A stretch of DNA of 64,000 bases, taken from positions 1 through 64,000 of the forward strand of contig CANPGM010000005.1 in NCBI GenBank assembly GCA_947573605.1, written 5' to 3'. Below the pieces are notes generated by a model. It saw only the letters and a list, made by a program, of their open reading frames with translations. It did no database searches and had not been told where the DNA came from. Of the stretch, positions 3,592-59,152 are shown piece after piece. Within the stretch, counting starts at the first letter, position 1. Each line of letters starts with the position of its first letter. The translations under genes and the position numbers were made by a program. The DNA is from an uncultured Roseburia sp. (lineage in GTDB: Bacteria > Bacillota > Clostridia > Lachnospirales > Lachnospiraceae).

Positions 3592-3680
3592 CACTGCACC
3601 TCCTGATATTGATTTACACCCACACTTCATGCATCCCCCATTTATGGTTTAATATCGTTCCCACTCTTCCTTAAATGGGA

Positions 3681-5231
3681 TTAATCCGCTTCATAATCTT
3701 CCAGCCAGCAGATTCCATGAAGCACACGGGCATATTTATCTCCGACCTTTTCCTTTTCGCGTGGCTCTGCACACTTCGTAAACTTTTCCCTGATTTTGCG
3801 TCCAAAATCACGAATGGCAAGCGGTTCCGCATAGCTGTATGACTGTTTCAGCCAAAGACAATATTCTTCATGCAGTTTACCCACTGGTATGAAATCGGAC
3901 AAATCATAAGTCACCTCACACTTACAATCCAGAAACTCCTTTAGATGGTCAATGCTGCTGTTCCTCCACTGGCACATCAGCTTTGCAGATGCATCCGGCA
4001 CTGTGAACTGGTAATTTGATTCAATCAAACGTCCTGCATATTGTGAAACTGCTATGGATGCTATGCTGTCCAATTCGTACTTTAAATCCTCAAACAAATC
4101 CGTCCTCTGATTCCTTTGTGGAACAGAATACAGAAACGGCACAATACGCATCCTGTTCCAGAAAGCAGAATCCTTCACTGCAAAAGCTGTCGCACAGTTT
4201 GTAGCAATCAGAAGCTTACAGGTTACATATTCTCTTGCGGCATCAATACCTTTTCGCTCTATGTTAACGGATTCTTCACCTGTAAGCAGTTTTATATTGT
4301 TGACTACCTCCGGGGCGATTCTTTCATCCACACACTCTGGAGCGATATTGATACGCTTATCTGCCATGGACGCCAGCCCAAACCTGCCGGATATGGAGGA
4401 TACTGGAGCGCGGTTGACTGCCGAATCTGGAAACATGGCTTCAATGACCTTTGCCAACAGGCTTTTGCCGCTATTTGGAGCAGTCCCCATCACAAAAAAG
4501 CATTTTCCGTCATTCGCAGGCAGAAGCATATAAGCAATCATCTCCCATATTAACTCCTGTATTGCAATGTCTCCTCCACTTACGTCATCTAAAAAACTGT
4601 CAAACACAGGCGTTCGTGCATATTCCCAATAATTCACTTCCAGTTGGGAGAATAGCAGGAATTCGGGTGAAAAATCCAAGAGCCTTCCCTGCCTGCAGTC
4701 ATATACACCATTTTGAAACGCAACCAGATACTTCATTCTTCTGTCCAGTTTTTTTCTGTTTACCACTTGTATTCTACAGTCTGACTTTAAGTCTGTCAGC
4801 AGCTTATTGTAAAAGCCAGGATCAGGTATCAGCCTTATATAGTCATCTGATAAGTTTCCCTTGATAAACTCAGCCAGTGAAAATACATCCGCCTTGTTAT
4901 AGATGCCATCCTCAAAATAATACATATTTCGCAATTCATCTCGAATAAATGTATAATCCTCCAGCAGTTTATCACCTATTATAGAAATCGGCTGTCGTTT
5001 TACCTTCTCTTTTAGCGGCTTCTCTTTCCCTGCCTTCAATCCTGCAGCCTTCTTCTCTTGATGGGGGCCTGTCTGCCCGGAGCGGCTTTCGGAGAAGAAT
5101 TCCATTCCTGTATTTGGATATCCAAAAAGCTCCCCCGGATACACCCGCTGACTTTGCAATGGCGTTTTTGGCCTTATTTCTTGAGCTTCCTGCAATTCCT
5201 GACCGGAATTATAAAATGCCATTAGTTCCAT
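3681..5231 (-). CDS. D5/P4-type superfamily 3 helicase, phage/plasmid primase-like
   Basis: A 516-residue replication protein. After a low-complexity N-terminus, residues of about 80-230 resemble the D5 N-terminal region. An SF3 helicase follows, with Walker A GTAPNSGKSLLAK near residue 250, acidic IAPECVDERIAPE and the sensor-like LLIATNCATAF. Such proteins unwind DNA for element or phage replication, and in integrative elements support rolling-circle or theta replication after excision. The start overlaps nothing, and the stop of the preceding gene lies 3 bp upstream, so the two are co-translated. No separate primase polymerase domain is evident, so it may be helicase only. Confidence 0.85.
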   Translation of the reverse strand: MELMAFYNSGQELQEAQEIRPKTPLQSQRVYPGELFGYPNTGMEFFSESRSGQTGPHQEKKAAGLKAGKEKPLKEKVKRQPISIIGDKLLEDYTFIRDELRNMYYFEDGIYNKADVFSLAEFIKGNLSDDYIRLIPDPGFYNKLLTDLKSDCRIQVVNRKKLDRRMKYLVAFQNGVYDCRQGRLLDFSPEFLLFSQLEVNYWEYARTPVFDSFLDDVSGGDIAIQELIWEMIAYMLLPANDGKCFFVMGTAPNSGKSLLAKVIEAMFPDSAVNRAPVSSISGRFGLASMADKRINIAPECVDERIAPEVVNNIKLLTGEESVNIERKGIDAAREYVTCKLLIATNCATAFAVKDSAFWNRMRIVPFLYSVPQRNQRTDLFEDLKYELDSIASIAVSQYAGRLIESNYQFTVPDASAKLMCQWRNSSIDHLKEFLDCKCEVTYDLSDFIPVGKLHEEYCLWLKQSYSYAEPLAIRDFGRKIREKFTKCAEPREKEKVGDKYARVLHGICWLEDYEAD

Positions 5232-51797: not shown

Positions 51798-52037
51798 GAT
51801 TTTTCTCTTTTTCTTTTTGATAATAAAAAGTCTGTTCTGCTCGTGTATTTCCTCCTCGTAGATCCCGACACGGAATGCGGAAATGAGTGCGAGCGGAGCA
51901 TAAAGAAACGCTAAAGCAGTTAAGAAAAGAATCTTCAAACCTTCAGATTGATACAACGTGATTTACCTGCCCCATTGACTCCTGCTATCAAAATATATTA
52001 TAAGCGAAATAGCCTGAAATGTGAATAAGTCAGAAAA

Positions 52038-52061
52038 ACTCCGCAGAAAAACCTGCGGAGT
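52038..52061 (-). terminator. Terminator, presumed original rpsI terminator
   Basis: ACTCCGCAG (52038-52046) and CTGCGGAGT (52053-52061) form a perfect 9-bp stem, followed on the minus strand by TTTTTCTG. It lies 31 bp beyond the left copy of the rpsI-type repeat, where a terminator for uninterrupted rpsI would be expected. Confidence 0.75.
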
Positions 52062-52091
52062 AATATTCTTGAAATCTTGTATTCTGTACGC

Positions 52092-52104
52092 GATTATCTC
52101 TTGG
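52092..52104. other. Putative attachment site (far copy) of the rpsI-site island
   Basis: GATTATCTCTTGG is identical to the sequence over the rpsI stop codon (58758-58770), in the same orientation. The 52105-52330 stretch inside it holds no gene. Confidence 0.75.
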
Positions 52105-52330
52105 GTAATGCTTTGAGAGCTTTAAAAGCCTGAAAATAAGGGATTTGTAGTGTAGTGTTCCATATGTGTCATATACACAGGGAGCACACATTCCCTGAAC
52201 TACTTATAACATTGTCAAATAAAGGACACTCCCTTATGTAAAATATTATGCTTACTATTGTAAATAATACAAATACTACGAATTTAGATTGTTGTCATCA
52301 CCATTATTTATTACATATTTTTTCCCTCGT

Positions 52331-53695
52331 TCAGATATTCTCATATGGTGTTACATACATTTTTCGAGAAACCAATCCTTTATCTTCATCCATCTTTTTA
52401 CATATTTTTCCCAATCGATGTGAATTAATATCAACATCACCTGCAAATTCTTTTGCTTGTATAAAATCAGTTCTATTATTGAGTTCAAGAAGAATAGTTA
52501 ACTCATCTTTACTTATTTGAGGTAACTCACAGTCTATTCTTAGGTCATTTACAACACTATCATCCTGTTTCGTTGTTTCTTCAACGTCCTCATGGCAAGT
52601 TGGACATTTATAACCCGTAAATTCCAATCCCACCTTTTTGTTTTCACTAAATATTCTTCCACAACCTTTACATTTTATAATTTTAATTTCGCTAATTTGC
52701 TGAAGAATTATTTTTGTATAATTAAATGGTCTCTCTATGAAATATGTTCTGTAATCTCTTCCCTCATGTTTCCCCCACAATATATTGTTTTTTTCACACA
52801 ATCCATAATTAATACAGTATATATTGACCTTTTTTTGATCCCTATTAGATCTCTCTTCACACTTTGAAATAAAATGATTCAATTTCAAAGACTCTAAGTA
52901 GTTATCTGCCTCTTGAAGTATGTGAAAATGACTCGAGTGCGGCTTTGTTTTATCATACAATTTTCCACTTAATTCGCCTTTTAATATCTGACTTATTATT
53001 TCTTTTGAAGTATTCACTATTGCATCTCTTATTTTTATTAATTGCGAAATACTTCTCTTTTCTTCTAGCGATAATATGCAATATGTACTACTTTCAAAAT
53101 AAGCATTAATATTATTATCATAATACTTTACCGATGCATTTTTTTATATCCTGCAAAGTAATACTTTTGTTATAAATTATTACGCTTTGGTATAAATAAG
53201 CTAGTAAAAAGCCTATTATCCTAGGCACATTCATCGATATCCTAAAAAATAATCTATAAACATCATTTATATCACAATTGTTTGAAAAGAATTTACAATA
53301 TCTAATATATAATACTCAAACCGATTATCTAAAAGCCGTTTTGTAAAATCAATTGCATTTTCTTCCATCCTAGTTGAATCAAATTCCGAATATAATTCAT
53401 AAAAATCAAGTTGAACCTTATCAATTTTACCTAGGTCTATTGCACCATAATGAACCCTTCCTGGATAAAAAGCAATCTTAAATTTAACAAACTCATCAGA
53501 CCAATTATTTAAAGGAGCCACTATCGTATCTATAAACAATTTTAAAGCTTCTCCATCTATTTCAGAAACATCATCAAGCATGACTACAAGCTTAGTAATT
53601 TTCATTTTCTTCAATATTGTTTTTATTGACTCTATTACTTTTTTTACCTGAAATACTTTCAATAATATGTCCGTGTATTCTTCCTCATGTAAATT
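52331..53695 (-). pseudogene. Broken P-loop ATPase with zinc ribbon and C-terminal winged helix
   Basis: Three minus-strand frames join into one protein. The first (53695-53267) has a Walker-B-like KLVVMLDDVSEIDGEALKLF and FYPGRVHYGAIDLG. The second (about 53275-53150) reads INDVYRLFFRISMNVPRIIG then FLLAYLYQSVIIYNKSITLQ. The third (about 53145-52331) carries a zinc ribbon (CKGCGRIF, CPTCHEDV) and a winged helix (ELNNRTDFIQAKEFAGDV). Frame changes lie near 53275 and in a run of seven A at about 53143. The N-terminal part with Walker A is missing. It follows the DpnII-like gene and may have been a defence ATPase. Sequencing error cannot be excluded. Confidence 0.65.
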
Positions 53696-53814
53696 TTAAA
53701 TTTCAATGGACCTACTATTTTCTCCATCTATTTTGCTCGACATTCCAAGACTATCTACTAATACAGATAAAAAATGTTGTATTGTCCAACAAACATTTAT
53801 TAAGTATTATATTA

Positions 53815-54693
53815 TCAGGAAGCAAAATTTCCCTCACTTCCTATTACCATATTAATAATATGATTTTCCATATCGTTAATACTATATACATGTTCCATAA
53901 CTTCGAATGTCTCCCTTAAATTACCTCTGGCGCTTTTCCAACCAATTCCATCTGTGAACCAAACAAATGTAAATCCATCTATAGTATCAGCTTCTTGAGA
54001 AAGCATTTTATAACTTCTTGCAGTCTCGTTAAGTTTAGAGCCTCCACCGCCATAAAAGTTTGTTTCAATACCATAAATCATATTATCCGTCTTGATTACA
54101 AAATCAAATCGCTTTGCGGCTTTTCCCTGATTTGAAAGTGTTGACAAGTCAATATTCCATTTAGCTTCAATATCCTTTAAGTACATTTCTTTAAAATAAT
54201 TCTCGTTTTTCTTGAATCCTGCTACCACAATGTACTTCTCAACCAAATCTTCCATTTGGTGTCCACCACGATTTTTACGTCCATTAGAATCCAATCCTGT
54301 TTCAATTCCTAATGCATAATCCACCAAATTATTCACAAGATGATTTGCAATCATATCAAACAATCCTGTTTTCCGCATAAAGACCTTATATTGTTCAACA
54401 TCATAATTCATTTTTTTGAAATTATATAAAAATGCACCATCTTCATCCTGAGCATAAATTTCATTACCTCTAACTGCCAACAAAAGTGGTATACATTTTA
54501 ATGTTTCCGGATATTTTTTCACTATAATTTCAAACTCTTCCTCAATATTCTTTGAACCTATAAGTGAGTTCAAAATATTCAATTCCACCTTAATTTTATC
54601 TACATTCTTTACTACCTTCTCAAAATCTATATAATAATCGTAACTAGAGATACTAGTACGAAACTTACTAAGCCATTCATCAAAATCTCTCAT
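53815..54693 (-). CDS. Type II restriction endonuclease, DpnII family (GATC)
   Basis: A 292-residue endonuclease matching DpnII/MboI-type enzymes that cut unmethylated GATC. Characteristic blocks are RKNRGGHQMEDLVEKYIVVA, MYLKDIEAKWNIDLSTLSNQ, KAAKRFDFVIKTDNMIYGIE and TNFYGGGGSKLNETARSYK, where the FDFVI...IETN pattern supplies the nuclease core. The ATG follows GGAGTATTG, 3 bp after the Mrr-like stop. It is the last intact gene of the five-gene modification-restriction operon. Confidence 0.93.
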   Translation of the reverse strand: MRDFDEWLSKFRTSISSYDYYIDFEKVVKNVDKIKVELNILNSLIGSKNIEEEFEIIVKKYPETLKCIPLLLAVRGNEIYAQDEDGAFLYNFKKMNYDVEQYKVFMRKTGLFDMIANHLVNNLVDYALGIETGLDSNGRKNRGGHQMEDLVEKYIVVAGFKKNENYFKEMYLKDIEAKWNIDLSTLSNQGKAAKRFDFVIKTDNMIYGIETNFYGGGGSKLNETARSYKMLSQEADTIDGFTFVWFTDGIGWKSARGNLRETFEVMEHVYSINDMENHIINMVIGSEGNFAS

Positions 54694-54696
54694 CTA

Positions 54697-55542
54697 TCAA
54701 TACTCCTTTATAGTAATATCTATTTTATCCTCGGAAAATTTCCAAATTGCCTTACACGGATTGTACGAACCATCCTCTGCAATTAATCCAGATTCCTTAT
54801 ACAAATCTGTTACGCCTGCAAGATATCCTCTATTCTTTGCTACTGTTAATTCTTTAGGTGCCAGTCCATTAAATATCACTTTAACTTTATGTGCATCGTC
54901 TGATAACAGATTTGTAATAGCCTTCGGTAATCTTAATATTCTTGCTCGAATGTCATTAGCCGAAATCTGTTTATCTACAACAAGCTTAACCCCTTCATTC
55001 GTTTCATCTATTGTTCCATCTTCTTTTACCAAATCATCTGCTTCATCCTTTAATGCATCCATTGCATTTTTACTGAATACAGGTGTAAATACAAAACCAA
55101 TCTCGTTATCAATACAGCTTTCAACAAGTGATTTTCCATCGATAAGAATAATCGGACGTGATGGGTCTGCGTCTACAAATTCTTCTGTCTTTTTTGAATA
55201 ATTTGCAGTTGTAATAAATATCCCCTTACTGCCCGAGGGCATCACGCCTCTAAGCGCCCTGACTTTTTCAATAGGAATTGTCGTTCCAGTTTTATTTCTC
55301 TTTGCCTGAACAAAATAATCAACAGCATCTGCCCCAGCAAATCCACCAACACCATATCTTACAGCCTCCAAGTCAATTCCGCCATCCGAAGAACGCTGTG
55401 TGACAACAACCTCATCAAGACCAATCTTTTCAAGATACACTTTTAAAAATTCCTCAAATGCATATCCACTTTCAAAATATCCATAAAACTGTTCCAAAAA
55501 CTCACTTATCTTCTCATCAGATATTTCAATATTCTTTCGCAT
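54697..55542 (-). CDS. Mrr-like restriction endonuclease
   Basis: A 281-residue protein with an Mrr_cat (PD-(D/E)XK) domain: FEEFLKVYLEKIGLDEVVVT, RSSDGGIDLEAV (catalytic Asp) and DYFVQAKRNKTGTTI (QAK). Then KGIFITTANYSKKTEEFVD is typical of Mrr nucleases. The C-terminal half (LVVDKQISANDIRARILRLP) is unassigned and may recognise DNA. Its start overlaps dpnA by 17 bp and its end nearly touches dpnII, so it is an integral gene of the operon, inserted where the classical DpnII operon has none. Confidence 0.85.
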   Translation of the reverse strand: MRKNIEISDEKISEFLEQFYGYFESGYAFEEFLKVYLEKIGLDEVVVTQRSSDGGIDLEAVRYGVGGFAGADAVDYFVQAKRNKTGTTIPIEKVRALRGVMPSGSKGIFITTANYSKKTEEFVDADPSRPIILIDGKSLVESCIDNEIGFVFTPVFSKNAMDALKDEADDLVKEDGTIDETNEGVKLVVDKQISANDIRARILRLPKAITNLLSDDAHKVKVIFNGLAPKELTVAKNRGYLAGVTDLYKESGLIAEDGSYNPCKAIWKFSEDKIDITIKEY

Positions 55543-56338
55543 CTCCGTAAACTTTCTCCAATCTCCTCTTGGATATCTCCAAATATTCTTCTCTTACGTC
55601 TATTCCAATAAACTTTCGTCCAAATCGTACCGCCTCTACTCCGGTAGTTCCTGAACCACAAAAAGGATCTAAGATAACTTGTCCTTCCTCCGTAGACGCC
55701 AATACAATTCTTTCAAGCAAATATTCCGGTTTCTGTGTTGGATGCTTGCCTTCTGATTTCTCCGAGGGTTTCGTCAATGCTCCTGTCCACACATCCTTCA
55801 TCTGCTTTCCACCATTCATTTCTTTCATTTTTTGATAATTAAAAAAATGCCGAGACTTTTTTTCATTCTTCTTTGCCCATAGAATGGTTTCCGTAGAATG
55901 TGTGAAACATCGACATGCTAAGTTTGGCGGTGGATTTGTTTTCTGCCATGTTATATTGTTAATTATTTTGAAGCCTTCTTGCTCCAATGCCATACCTATC
56001 GAATATATATTGTGCAATGTTCCCGATATCCAAATTGTGCCGTTTGACTTTAGTACTTTCTTACATAACTTAATCCACTTTCTATTAAACTTATGTTTTT
56101 GCTCGACACTGGTTCCTCTTTCTGAAAGTTTATCCCATGAGCCTTTATTTACTGAAACCATCTTTCCGCCCTGACAGGTAATGCCGTCATTGCTTAAAAA
56201 ATAGGGCGGATCCGCAAATATCATATCTACAAATTCTGGTTGCATCTTTGTTAGAATTTTAAAGGAATCACCTAATACCAACTGCGATTCTTCTGTCTCG
56301 AAATATAATGGTACTTTCTTTATGAATAAGTTCTCCAT
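55526..56338 (-). CDS. DNA methyltransferase, DpnA-like (beta class)
   Basis: A 270-residue N6-adenine/N4-cytosine methyltransferase with motif order IV then I: catalytic DMIFADPPYFLSNDG near residue 37 and SAM site ILDPFCGSGTTGVEAVRFGR near the C-terminus. In DpnII systems the second methylase (DpnA) also methylates GATC in single strands, protecting incoming DNA (established for Streptococcus pneumoniae). TAAAGGAG precedes the ATG. It lies 13 bp after the DpnM-like gene. Confidence 0.9.
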   Translation of the reverse strand: MENLFIKKVPLYFETEESQLVLGDSFKILTKMQPEFVDMIFADPPYFLSNDGITCQGGKMVSVNKGSWDKLSERGTSVEQKHKFNRKWIKLCKKVLKSNGTIWISGTLHNIYSIGMALEQEGFKIINNITWQKTNPPPNLACRCFTHSTETILWAKKNEKKSRHFFNYQKMKEMNGGKQMKDVWTGALTKPSEKSEGKHPTQKPEYLLERIVLASTEEGQVILDPFCGSGTTGVEAVRFGRKFIGIDVREEYLEISKRRLEKVYGDAKEY

Positions 56339-56351
56339 TATCTCGACTCCT

Positions 56352-57185
56352 TTAATAATTACATATAATTACTTCTTCACCAACTCTGTTGGATGCATCA
56401 GAATTAATCATACGCTTTACACTTACAACATCTATTCTGTATCCCTTGTTACCATACAGCTCATTTATCAAATCCGTATTATGATTTGTGAGCATACAGT
56501 AGCATCCTCTAGCGGTTAATTCATCATAAAGCTTTGCTAAACGCATGTGACTTTCTATATCAAATCCTTCTTTTGTATATGACTCAAAAGAGGTAGGATT
56601 CAATGGTGCATACGGGCTGTCAATAAATACAAAATCACCCTTCTTTGCATTCTTACAAGCCGCTTCAAAATCTCCATCTATAATAGTTACGCCTTGTAAA
56701 TAATTTGAAATAGCCATAATAGCATCTTCATCAACGGATGCCCTACGGCTATTATTGTACGGAACATTGAAAATACCTTTACCATTTACCCGATATAACC
56801 CATTAAAGCAGTGCTTATTGATAAATACAAACAATGCAGCCAACTCAACATCATACTCTTCCTTCACCAGCTTATCATTGTAATGTTCTCTGAGAGAATA
56901 ATAGTATTCCTTACCGTCATCCCACATTTCCTCATCAAGCTTATTTACAGCCTTTAAGAATGCTTCCGGTGCGTTACATATCTGCTTGTATGCATTTATC
57001 AAAGCCTTGTTTATATCATTTATCAAAGCATTTGCAGGTAGCAGTTCAAATGTTACCGCACCGCCACCTACAAACGGCTCATAATAATTATTATACTTTT
57101 CAGGCATTCTCTCCTTTATCTGTGGAAGTAACTGGCGCTTACCTCCTGCCCATTTCACAAATGAAGCTATATTCGAATTACTCAT
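56352..57185 (-). CDS. DNA adenine methyltransferase, DpnM/Dam-like, with DSPY motif
   Basis: A 277-residue alpha-class Dam-type methylase. The SAM motif is FVKWAGGKRQLLPQIKERMP with YYEPFVGGGAVTFELL, and LINDINKALINAYK follows. The catalytic tetrapeptide is DSPY (GDFVFIDSPYAPLNPTSFES) instead of the usual DPPY. The rest of the protein, including NKHCFNGLYRVNGKGIFNVP, is intact, so it may still methylate GATC. GAGGAAGCAG precedes the ATG. It heads the DpnM-DpnA-Mrr-DpnII run. Confidence 0.9.
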   Translation of the reverse strand: MSNSNIASFVKWAGGKRQLLPQIKERMPEKYNNYYEPFVGGGAVTFELLPANALINDINKALINAYKQICNAPEAFLKAVNKLDEEMWDDGKEYYYSLREHYNDKLVKEEYDVELAALFVFINKHCFNGLYRVNGKGIFNVPYNNSRRASVDEDAIMAISNYLQGVTIIDGDFEAACKNAKKGDFVFIDSPYAPLNPTSFESYTKEGFDIESHMRLAKLYDELTARGCYCMLTNHNTDLINELYGNKGYRIDVVSVKRMINSDASNRVGEEVIICNY

Positions 57186-57291
57186 TCTGCTTCCTCTTCT
57201 CTATGTCCGTAAGTGGACAATCTTTTACATTTCCATTATACTTGCAAACATACAAAATAACAATCAAAACTTTCACTCTTTGTGAATTATC

Positions 57292-58021
57292 TTACTTTTG
57301 AAATACAAATATATACTCATGTGCTAGAATCAGAAAATTATTGTTTTGTTTCTCCCAATAATCATTAGAGCGACAATTATGTTGTTCTTTAATAATAATC
57401 TCCTTATTCACAAAACCTGCCTGCAAAAAGCCATCCATCATACGAAACCCTAACGGAATGACCTTTCCATATTTTCTTACATCCCCAATCATTACTGCAC
57501 ACATTTTTCCCTTTTTCAATACACGATACGCTTCTTTTGCCACCTTCTGCATCTCATCTAAAAATGCTTCCACACCTAACAAAGAAATATCCCCCTCTAT
57601 TCCTTTACTATACTTAATAATATTAGCATATGGTGGATGCGTACATATAAAGTCAATACGACTATCTTTGTTAAAATGCAAATCAGCAGCATTCCCATTT
57701 CTTGTAAATATTTTTGAAGTTGTCTCACATTGGAATTGTAAATTTGTTTCAGCTATTGAAACGGATTGCGGATTGATATCAACACCTACCGCATTACGAT
57801 TGAGCAGCTTCGCCTCTACTAAGGTTGTTCCACTACCCATAAATTGATCTAAAACCCAGTCACCCGGATTAGAATAACGAAGTATCAGATTTCTTGGTAC
57901 ATACGGAGACCAATTCCCCCGATACCTACCTGAATGTGTTGCCCAACTGCCTCTGTCTAGAAACGACCAGATTGTTGTTGGTTCGAGTTTGAAACTATTT
58001 GGTTGTAAACTTATAAGTCAT
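57292..58021 (-). pseudogene. DNA methyltransferase with a start-region frameshift
   Basis: About 240 codons of a TRM11-like DNA methylase: EPTTIWSFLDRGSWATHSGR, GNWSPYVPRNLILRYSNPGD, WVLDQFMGSGTTLVEAK (SAM site) and FICTHPPYANIIKYSKGIEG (catalytic PPY). The main frame has no ATG, GTG or TTG start before the conserved N-terminus. An ATG at 58021 directly after GGAGG opens another frame that stops after eight codons (MTYKFTTK) where the main frame takes over. Either one base has been gained near 57996, or translation starts at an ATA seven bases past GGAGG. If translation starts at the internal ATG at 57840, the product lacks the N-terminal third. Confidence 0.65.
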
Positions 58022-58088
58022 ACCTCCTTCTTTTTACTGATTATGTCATTATAGCTCAGATTTTCACAAAAATCCATAGTCAATTTCT

Positions 58089-58149
58089 TTCACTATAAAT
58101 GAATTTATTTAACATAAATCTCATGAGATAATATTCACAAATAGTGAAA
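58089..58149 (+). promoter_or_regulatory. Paired operator-like sites and -10 box of the XRE controller
   Basis: TTCACTATAAATGAA (58089-58103) and TTCACAAATAGTGAA (58135-58149) are related in inverted orientation. The outer parts TTTCACTAT and ATAGTGAAA are perfect complements. A GATAAT box (58127-58132) lies between them. The layout suits a C-protein operator controlling both divergent transcripts. Confidence 0.5.
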
Positions 58150-58160
58150 GAGGTGTTTTC

Positions 58161-58400
58161 ATGCATTTCAACAATGATGCCGACCTATATCGTGTTATAG
58201 GCACAAATATAAAACATTACAGAGAACAAGCTAAATTAACGCAAGTACAACTTGCTGAACAAGCTAAAATCAGCATCAGCTATCTTTCAAAAATCGAAGC
58301 AACAGGATGTGATAAAAGTCTTTCTATATCTGTGCTAAACCAGATAGCTAATGTACTTGATGTTGAGATCAAAGAGTTTTTTAATGAGGAATTTCAATGA
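58161..58400 (+). CDS. XRE-family regulator, restriction controller-like
   Basis: A 79-residue protein made almost only of a Cro/CI-type HTH (IGTNIKHYREQAKLTQVQLA, EQAKISISYLSKIEATGCDK, then a QIANVLDV helix), the size of controller (C) proteins of restriction systems. AGAGG precedes the ATG. It is divergent from the methylase-restriction operon and overlaps the next small gene by ATGA. I infer that it times expression of the restriction enzymes. Confidence 0.88.
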   Translation: MHFNNDADLYRVIGTNIKHYREQAKLTQVQLAEQAKISISYLSKIEATGCDKSLSISVLNQIANVLDVEIKEFFNEEFQ

Positions 58401-58576
58401 AATTATGTGAAGCAAAACACCAAATTGACAGACTTGCTTGTATACCTTTTAAGGAATATCTTGAACCATCTGTTTTTCAAGATGCAATGCTCAAATTAAA
58501 CAAAGGACTTACCGGACAATTACTTAAATTAACAATTGGGTTGAACCTTTCAAATACAACTTGTAAATGCGATTAA
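58397..58576 (+). pseudogene. N-terminal stub of a Sau3AI/MutH-like endonuclease
   Basis: A 59-residue frame starting within the ATGA overlap with the XRE stop. Its end, NKGLTGQLLKLTIGLNLSN, matches the start of the nuclease domain in Sau3AI/MutH enzymes (Lys-Gly...Gly-x-Leu-Leu-Glu), which should continue into the catalytic Asp and ELK motif. Instead the frame stops. Sau3AI also cuts GATC, as DpnII does. A controller gene coupled to an endonuclease gene is a usual arrangement. I conclude that this is a decayed second GATC endonuclease, truncated near the island end. Confidence 0.45.
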
Positions 58577-58597
58577 CAAAATTTAAACAAAGGAAAA

Positions 58598-58629
58598 AGG
58601 ACATTCCCAGATTTCTCTGAAAATGTCCT
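58598..58629 (-). terminator. Terminator after rpsI, supplied by the island
   Basis: AGGACATT (58598-58605) and AATGTCCT (58622-58629) form a perfect stem, followed on the minus strand by TTTTTCC. It lies inside the island, about 130 bp past the rpsI stop. Confidence 0.7.
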
Positions 58630-58649
58630 ATACATATCATTGATATTCG

Positions 58650-58670
58650 TGTTGCATACTTGTTGCATAC
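58650..58670. repeat. Tandem 10-bp direct repeats, candidate arm-type sites
   Basis: TGTTGCATAC occurs at 58650-58659 and 58661-58670. It lies about 90 bp inside the right att copy, where an integrase arm site would be expected. Confidence 0.45.
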
Positions 58671-58757
58671 CATTTGAAATCCAATACATCTGACAACTTT
58701 CCACAACTTCTGTAACCCTTGTAAAATGGGCTTTTCTTGATATCTTCGTTTCCGAAA

Positions 58758-58770
58758 GATTATCTCTTGG
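58758..58770. other. Putative attachment site over the rpsI stop codon
   Basis: GATTATCTCTTGG contains the last codons and stop of rpsI (CC AAG AGA TAA on the minus strand) and is repeated without mismatch at 52092-52104. Confidence 0.75.
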
Positions 58771-59152
58771 AAAACTGCGGTGCACGGCGAGCCGCTTTAA
58801 GACCGTATTTCTTACGCTCTTTCATACGCGGATCACGAGTTAAATATCCGGCCTTTTTCAAAATCGGTCTGTAGTCGGCGTCTACGGTAATCAGCGCACG
58901 CGCAATACCGTGTCTGATTGCTCCTGCCTGTCCTGTATATCCGCCGCCCTTGACATTTACCAGAACGTCAAATTTATCGACTGTCTCCGTTGCTACCAAC
59001 GGCTGACGAACGATTACCTTTAATGTGTCAAGGCCTAAATATTCGTCGATATCTCTTTTATTAATTGTAACTTTACCCGTACCCGGTACCAAATATACTC
59101 TGGCAACAGATGATTTTCTTCTTCCTGTTCCGTAATACCTTGTATTAGCCAA
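58760..59152 (-). CDS. rpsI: 30S ribosomal protein S9
   Basis: A 130-residue ribosomal protein with the standard start [20 protein letters not shown], central [19 protein letters not shown] and the C-terminal [17 protein letters not shown] whose tail reaches the P-site tRNA. It is intact although its last codons form the attachment site of the restriction island. It is co-transcribed with rplM, 17 bp upstream. Confidence 0.98.

Follow-up and report, generated by a model that had tools for sequence, protein, structure and literature searches.

The 64,000-nucleotide stretch of an uncultured Roseburia sp. analyzed here (contig CANPGM010000005.1 of assembly GCA_947573605.1; hereafter the window) contains, at positions 52092-58770, an island attached to the 3' end of rpsI, the gene for ribosomal protein S9. 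We have high confidence that this island is a cis-mobilizable element (CIME), that is, the decayed remnant of an integrative and mobilizable element (IME) that was inserted at a core sequence in rpsI and then lost its integration and mobilization genes, probably by one deletion of about 5.3 kb at position 58560. What was observed directly comprises two copies of the core, empty sites, shared element ends, integrase-bearing relatives with related cargo, and a break of homology at 58560 seen from both sides. Relatives were sought in the genus, in the family Lachnospiraceae (to which Roseburia hominis also belongs) and in the order; L and G numbers denote loci and genomes. The positions that delimit the element are as follows.

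58760-59152, minus strand: rpsI, the target gene, with its last codons and stop codon inside the attachment (att) core (open reading frame [ORF] and homologous loci)
58758-58770, plus strand: copy of the att core that spans the rpsI stop codon (exact repeat)
58594-58757, minus strand: rpsI-side element end, common to the IME relatives, with two arm-like GTATGCAACA sequences (comparison with relatives)
58598-58629, minus strand: terminator carried by the element, at which rpsI transcription is now predicted to end (fold; similar hairpins in relatives)
58560-58582, plus strand: tyrosine integrase remnant, the last ~7 codons and stop (homology to relatives)
58397-58576, plus strand: truncated MutH/Sau3AI-type endonuclease gene, the first ~55 codons, joined to the integrase remnant at 58560 (homology to relatives)
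52105-52200, minus strand: far element end, with one arm-like near match at 52156-52165 (comparison with relatives)
52092-52104, plus strand: att core copy at the far end (exact repeat; empty sites in relatives)
52038-52061, minus strand: terminator located after rpsI prior to the insertion; belongs to a zeta-type cassette in relatives (fold; relatives)
51946-51999, minus strand: zeta-type gene remnant of an older cassette (homology to relatives)

The core, 13-mer GATTATCTCTTGG, is identical at both ends, as the original prediction had stated, and the whole assembly (3.08 Mb in 71 contigs) holds no further exact copy and one copy with a single mismatch, on another contig. The 6.7 kb between the copies have a G+C content of 0.33, compared with 0.42 and 0.47 in the flanks. 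The arm-like repeats described earlier were also found: GTATGCAACA occurs twice at the rpsI end (58661-58670 and 58650-58659), and the single near match at the far end carries a mismatch. The proposal that the island brings a new terminator agrees with the fold of 58585-58650 on the rpsI strand (-20.7 kcal/mol; -19.8 kcal/mol for 52020-52075, beyond the far core). The 121 bp of the far end were examined as a possible cassette-like repeat; they do not recur elsewhere in the genome, and they were matched in three of 61 other genomes of the genus.

The far copy of the core is no coincidence, as three island-less relatives (L019 of genome G031, L057, and L109) join the end of rpsI to sequence resembling the window from 52104 leftward, the 52038-52061-type terminator included. 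This is the empty site that had been anticipated, and together with the exact cores it supports insertion into the 3' end of rpsI. The set of rpsI loci surveyed comprises 123 members including the window (80 named loci, 40 regions from the genus, and two more), which are partly dependent on each other: L066 and L155 have the same coordinates and are apparently one element, and G005 gave two loci. Comparison of the left flank by blastn with the 122 other loci, some of which break off no more than a few dozen bases from rpsI, found it directly after rpsI in four, namely the three above and, in part, L169; in L101 and L018 the match is confined to the hairpin, and in L104 it lies behind a second unit. 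In the remaining loci rpsI is followed by different sequences, or the contig ends too early. The original prediction had named as contrary evidence any island-less relatives in which the left-flank sequence does not follow rpsI. Taken literally, most relatives are of this kind, but we do not regard them as a refutation, since the sequence after rpsI takes many different forms in this family and the site thus appears to turn over quickly.

The rpsI-side end of the island is shared with other elements. Its first ~200-240 bp are common to the window, L077, L118, and L062; what follows past the shared terminator in L077 and L062 is the C-terminal end of a tyrosine integrase gene oriented towards rpsI, and L118 shows none. 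With up to three mismatches allowed, a search of 397 family genomes for a 32-base motif from this end gave 22 places, distributed over 21 genomes (that of the window among them), and none for the reversed control. At 18 of the 22 places, again including the window, the motif lies within 72 bp of the rpsI 3' end as located by tblastn; the same applies to L182, judged by eye at a contig edge, and the motif places in L184, L195, and L196 are not at an rpsI end. Nineteen places, with at least 1.3 kb beyond the end, could be judged for integrase content (L178, L180, and L194 were dropped because of contig ends, and L182 was read as L203). Eight of them have a full tyrosine integrase (L198, L202, L203, L207, L208, L210, L211, and L212); in L209 the integrase is N-terminally truncated, residues 1-56 being unmatched though the contig continues. 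No full integrase is present at the other ten within the 3.8 to 19 kb available for each: the window, L199, L200, L201, L204, L205, L206, L213, L214, and L215. The remnants vary in length from ~7 codons in the window to 15 amino acids in L206, 26 in L199, 52 in L215, 61 in L200, and 103 in L213 (46 in L077, outside this set of 19); none was detected in L201, L204, L205, and L214, where very short remnants would have escaped the search. Of the 123 rpsI loci, 92 extend 1.5 kb or more beyond the gene; 11 of these have a match to this integrase within 6 to 6.7 kb, nearly whole-length in seven (two of which, L066 and L155, are apparently a single element) and partial in L062, L071, L077, and L097. 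A second far-end type ("family B") was found in four of the 397 genomes, the window's genome not among them; in one of these, G323 (L225/L226), only the C-terminal 151 integrase residues were matched, ~1 kb from rpsI. The same element end as in the window also occurs on a contig of the IMG/VR viral collection (L197), where 72 C-terminal integrase residues were matched ~0.4 kb from the contig end.

The earlier observation that the island contains no integrase is correct as regards a gene, since the island has no match to PF00589, but the last codons of one persist at 58560-58582. No integrase of the rpsI type was found elsewhere in the assembly, the single match reaching 29% over 141 residues. 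The eight Phage_integrase matches of the genome (six above the family cut-off) were considered as possible partners of the same core; none is of the rpsI type, and none of the eight loci holds the 11-base core string AAGAGATAATC, so that the proposed search of the genome for an integrase with this att core came out negative. Shorter 8-base strings occur in L002.

What the intact element may have looked like is indicated by L212, from a genome (G183) of another genus of the family. This element, located at rpsI, has in order an integrase (PF00589), a helix-turn-helix (HTH) protein, a small xis-like protein without a match in Pfam, an AAA_25 ATPase, a Mob_Pre relaxase (Pfam Mob_Pre being the MobV family), related cargo, and a far end with an att-like core; it also encodes a 404-aa GmrSD_N-like protein. 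Related restriction cargo together with AAA and Mob_Pre genes is likewise found in another integrase-bearing relative, L202. The proteins compared between the window and L212 are 89-98% identical (HTH protein, 89%; third methyltransferase, 92%; DpnM, 92%; DpnA, 94%; Mrr, 97.5%), and the cargo DNA, DpnII included, is 92.3% identical in a stretch of 2466 bp and 88.2% identical in one of 2044 bp. The DNA from rplM through rpsI to the element end is 81.0% identical over 1071 bp, and this lower similarity points to transfer of the cargo between lineages. Integrase and relaxase of its own, the pair that characterizes an intact IME, are both present in L212 and missing from the window, where the relaxase of the relatives had no match in the stretch searched. 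The island shows three features of a CIME: att ends retained, as seen from the exact cores and the empty sites; integration genes reduced to the C-terminal remnant; and mobilization genes lost. L213, L065, and L121 have related restriction cargo at rpsI with other structures and without a full integrase.

Position 58560 was identified as a breakpoint from both sides, as homology to L212 extends from 59611 to 58560 and homology to L202 from 58560 to 53865. On the cargo side of this point, L202 has a 219-aa gene beside the HTH gene; its protein has no Pfam match at 0.01, and many of its homologues of ~70% identity carry PF02976, some being named MutH or MutH/Sau3AI. A separate search with the junction as query in 392 genomes of the order, the window's own included, gave the same division: G758 matches only to base 156 of the query, and G169 only from base 156. 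The G758 locus has a complete MutH-type gene, next to which stand a similar HTH gene and a DpnM gene; the G169 locus has the end of an integrase behind rpsI (residues 266-354 matched). Two other matches were short or weak. The homology broken from both sides suggests one deletion, likely of 5.3 kb by comparison with L202.

Under the mechanism that we propose, the element would have entered the 3' end of rpsI through recombination by a tyrosine integrase at the 13-bp core, preserving the stop codon and, as predicted, supplying a new terminator. The deletion would then have left almost nothing of the integrase gene and only a minor part of the MutH/Sau3AI-type gene; the regulator, AAA-ATPase, and relaxase genes would have been lost with it, and immobility would have followed from the loss of the integration and mobilization functions. 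Since the island lacks an integrase and the assembly yielded none of the rpsI type, it is predicted to be stuck unless another element of this site specificity arrives later and moves it.

The ten places with the same end and no full integrase could also be expected if the island were a non-autonomous element that is still mobile, with other rpsI-targeting elements providing in trans the integrase for its excision and integration; both att ends and the arm-like sites are retained, and L065, L121, and L213 show that cargo of this type occurs at rpsI in integrase-less form. We consider such mobility improbable. Remnants of different lengths, from 7 codons to 103 aa, are to be expected from separate losses and not from the spread of one integrase-less form; the far arm carries a mismatch, the assembly yielded no like integrase, and none of the 391 other genomes of the order contains a convincing copy of the window junction. 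A single spreading non-autonomous element was therefore rejected on account of the differing remnants and the junction search. Nor does it seem probable that the cargo arrived by homologous recombination between the rpsI flanks of related strains instead of by site-specific insertion in this lineage: rpsI is conserved, and integrase-less relatives exist as possible donors, but the repeat-to-repeat structure and the empty sites make this step superfluous. The notion of an ordinary defense island with a coincidental 13-bp match has almost no probability left. Thirteen base pairs is short, but the absence of other exact copies in 3.08 Mb and the position at rpsI of 18 of the 22 places with the same end argue against chance, and the empty sites already refute it.

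Insertion followed by deletion thus remains our preferred explanation, with several observations that weigh against it. The integrase remnant of ~7 codons could not have been recognized without the relatives. L202 is only 74% identical to the window at the MutH-type gene, so the direct parent has not been seen, and for the region 52331-53662 no relative was found. The assembly is 97.4% complete, and one of its gaps could hide an integrase. Finally, a weak match in G489 (74%, E = 9.6e-4) crosses the junction base; we take it to be due to chance, because none of the proteins compared with this locus (integrase, MutH-type, HTH, DpnM, relaxase, and rpsI) found a match there.

The terminator at 52038-52061, which had been interpreted as the displaced original terminator of rpsI, did stand after rpsI before the insertion, but it is probably not primordial. 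In G031, G045, and L169 a similar terminator leads into a promoter-like stretch, after which come a small gene and a zeta-type gene, and an att-like far end lies beyond the zeta-type gene in G031 and G045, as it does in L222, where a zeta-type gene is located behind rpsI. A primordial rpsI terminator was therefore rejected in favor of the rpsI-side end of a zeta-type cassette. Together with the remnant at 51946-51999, this suggests that the "original" terminator was itself element-borne and that two decayed units probably lie one behind the other in the window (tandem accretion), the older one being a zeta-type toxin-antitoxin cassette. Zeta-type units of ~1 kb after rpsI, with no integrase between, were observed in L019, L018, L169, L222, and L104 (in second place in L104), and a second type of att-like far end lies beyond those of L019, L018, L222, and L104. 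L133, L104, and L018 share an inverted-repeat insert in the first ~35 bp after rpsI, which gives a double att-like site. In G045, an att-like site and a terminator of the 52038-52061 type are located near 5238 of contig C1 (L017), beside ABC-transporter-like genes and on a different contig from the rpsI match of this genome. Small rpsI units in L150, L157, and L159 resemble nucleotidyltransferase/HEPN, HicAB, zeta, and Abi genes (named by eye); those of L150 stand in tandem with att-like ends.

A broader interpretation, possible but rather doubtful, is that the rpsI 3' end in Lachnospiraceae is a dock where elements repeatedly shed their integrase, docked defense and toxin-antitoxin cassettes becoming fixed in tandem. 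The att end and terminator could not be lost, because they would end the rpsI transcript, so that deletions would start inside the integrase gene; the cassettes fixed in this way would be restriction systems and the ~1-kb zeta-type units.

The genes between the cores are predicted to constitute a restriction-modification island, as originally proposed, with a DpnII-family endonuclease, an Mrr-type protein, three methyltransferases, and an HTH regulator.

58161-58400, plus strand: HTH regulator with weak likeness to restriction-modification control proteins (family searches)
57292-58014, minus strand: N6/N4 DNA methyltransferase, predicted ATA start at 58012-58014 behind AAGGAGG (family searches, start inspection)
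56352-57185, minus strand: Dam/DpnM-type adenine methyltransferase (PF02086, TIGR00571)
55526-56338, minus strand: another adenine-type methyltransferase (N6_N4_Mtase), occupying the DpnA position (family searches)
54697-55542, minus strand: Mrr-type restriction endonuclease domain protein (family search)
53815-54693, minus strand: DpnII-family restriction endonuclease (PF04556, E = 4.9e-110)
53267-53662, minus strand: ORF of 131 aa, perhaps a gene fragment (ORF list; no family match)
52331-53017, minus strand: ORF of 228 aa, perhaps a gene fragment (ORF list; no family match)

The two far-side ORFs had no family match in Pfam, PADLOC, or NCBIfam. In classical DpnII systems the endonuclease gene stands side by side with those for a Dam-type and a second methyltransferase. 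The island has the same combination and is thus predicted to carry a DpnII-type system for GATC modification and restriction; it differs in the extra methyltransferase, the Mrr-type protein, the HTH regulator, and the truncated MutH/Sau3AI-type gene, and its GATC specificity is a prediction. A DpnM match within 6 to 6.7 kb downstream was found in three of the 92 rpsI loci (the window, L065, and L121). The third methyltransferase gene has AAGGAGG followed eight bases on by ATA in the window, L212, L213, and L065, and by ATT in L202. The window, L213, and L065 have no in-frame ATG, GTG, or TTG from the last upstream stop or AAGGAGG to the conserved N-terminal residues; an ATG is found in frame upstream of AAGGAGG in L212, further in in L202, and also in L121. 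A non-canonical start codon is therefore predicted for this gene.

The original prediction further saw the same insertion logic in a guaA element of the window. Positions 3658-3669 resemble the usual 3' end of guaA; in a check for this gene, the ORF at 3681-5231 turned out to be something else, and no ORF could be assigned as guaA.

Elements of this kind are known from other bacteria. In published reports, rpsI and guaA are named as 3'-end sites of streptococcal integrative and conjugative elements (ICEs) (PMC4701971), rpsI-targeting IMEs of Streptococcus such as IMESag-rpsI with a MobV relaxase are described along with tandem accretion (PMC5357655, PMC5704250), and CIMEs are defined and described together with rpsI IMEs (PMC5704250). 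As far as these descriptions go, the island resembles a CIME in the loss of integration and transfer genes, the retention of both att ends, the location at the 3' end of a housekeeping gene, and the adjacency to another decayed unit; it differs in deriving from a Lachnospiraceae IME family with predicted GATC restriction cargo, and its mobilization in cis is putative. With the streptococcal IMEs, as described there, its element family shares the tyrosine integrase, the rpsI 3' end, the MobV relaxase (of IMESag-rpsI), and tandem accretion with decayed elements. This likeness is one of description; the bacterial family is another, and the copy in the window has lost its integration and mobilization genes. 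ICE_RhoA2-183_rpsI of Roseburia hominis is also described as an integrated element at rpsI in Lachnospiraceae, but it is a putative ICE that harbors a tet element (PMC12904643). No DpnII-type CIME at rpsI in Lachnospiraceae was named in the titles or abstract beginnings among the matches listed. The kind is thus already known; within the literature searched, this member of it is new, and so is the decay series.

Among genomic islands the present one belongs to a known kind, of which it is a clear example, though a fairly ordinary one. Its value lies in an unusually clean series of IME decay, from the empty site through integrase-bearing elements with related cargo to integrase-less remnants with different breakpoints. 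It extends the rpsI-targeted IMEs and CIMEs of streptococci to gut-type Lachnospiraceae with restriction cargo, and it suggests how a ribosomal gene of the host comes to depend on the terminator of an element.

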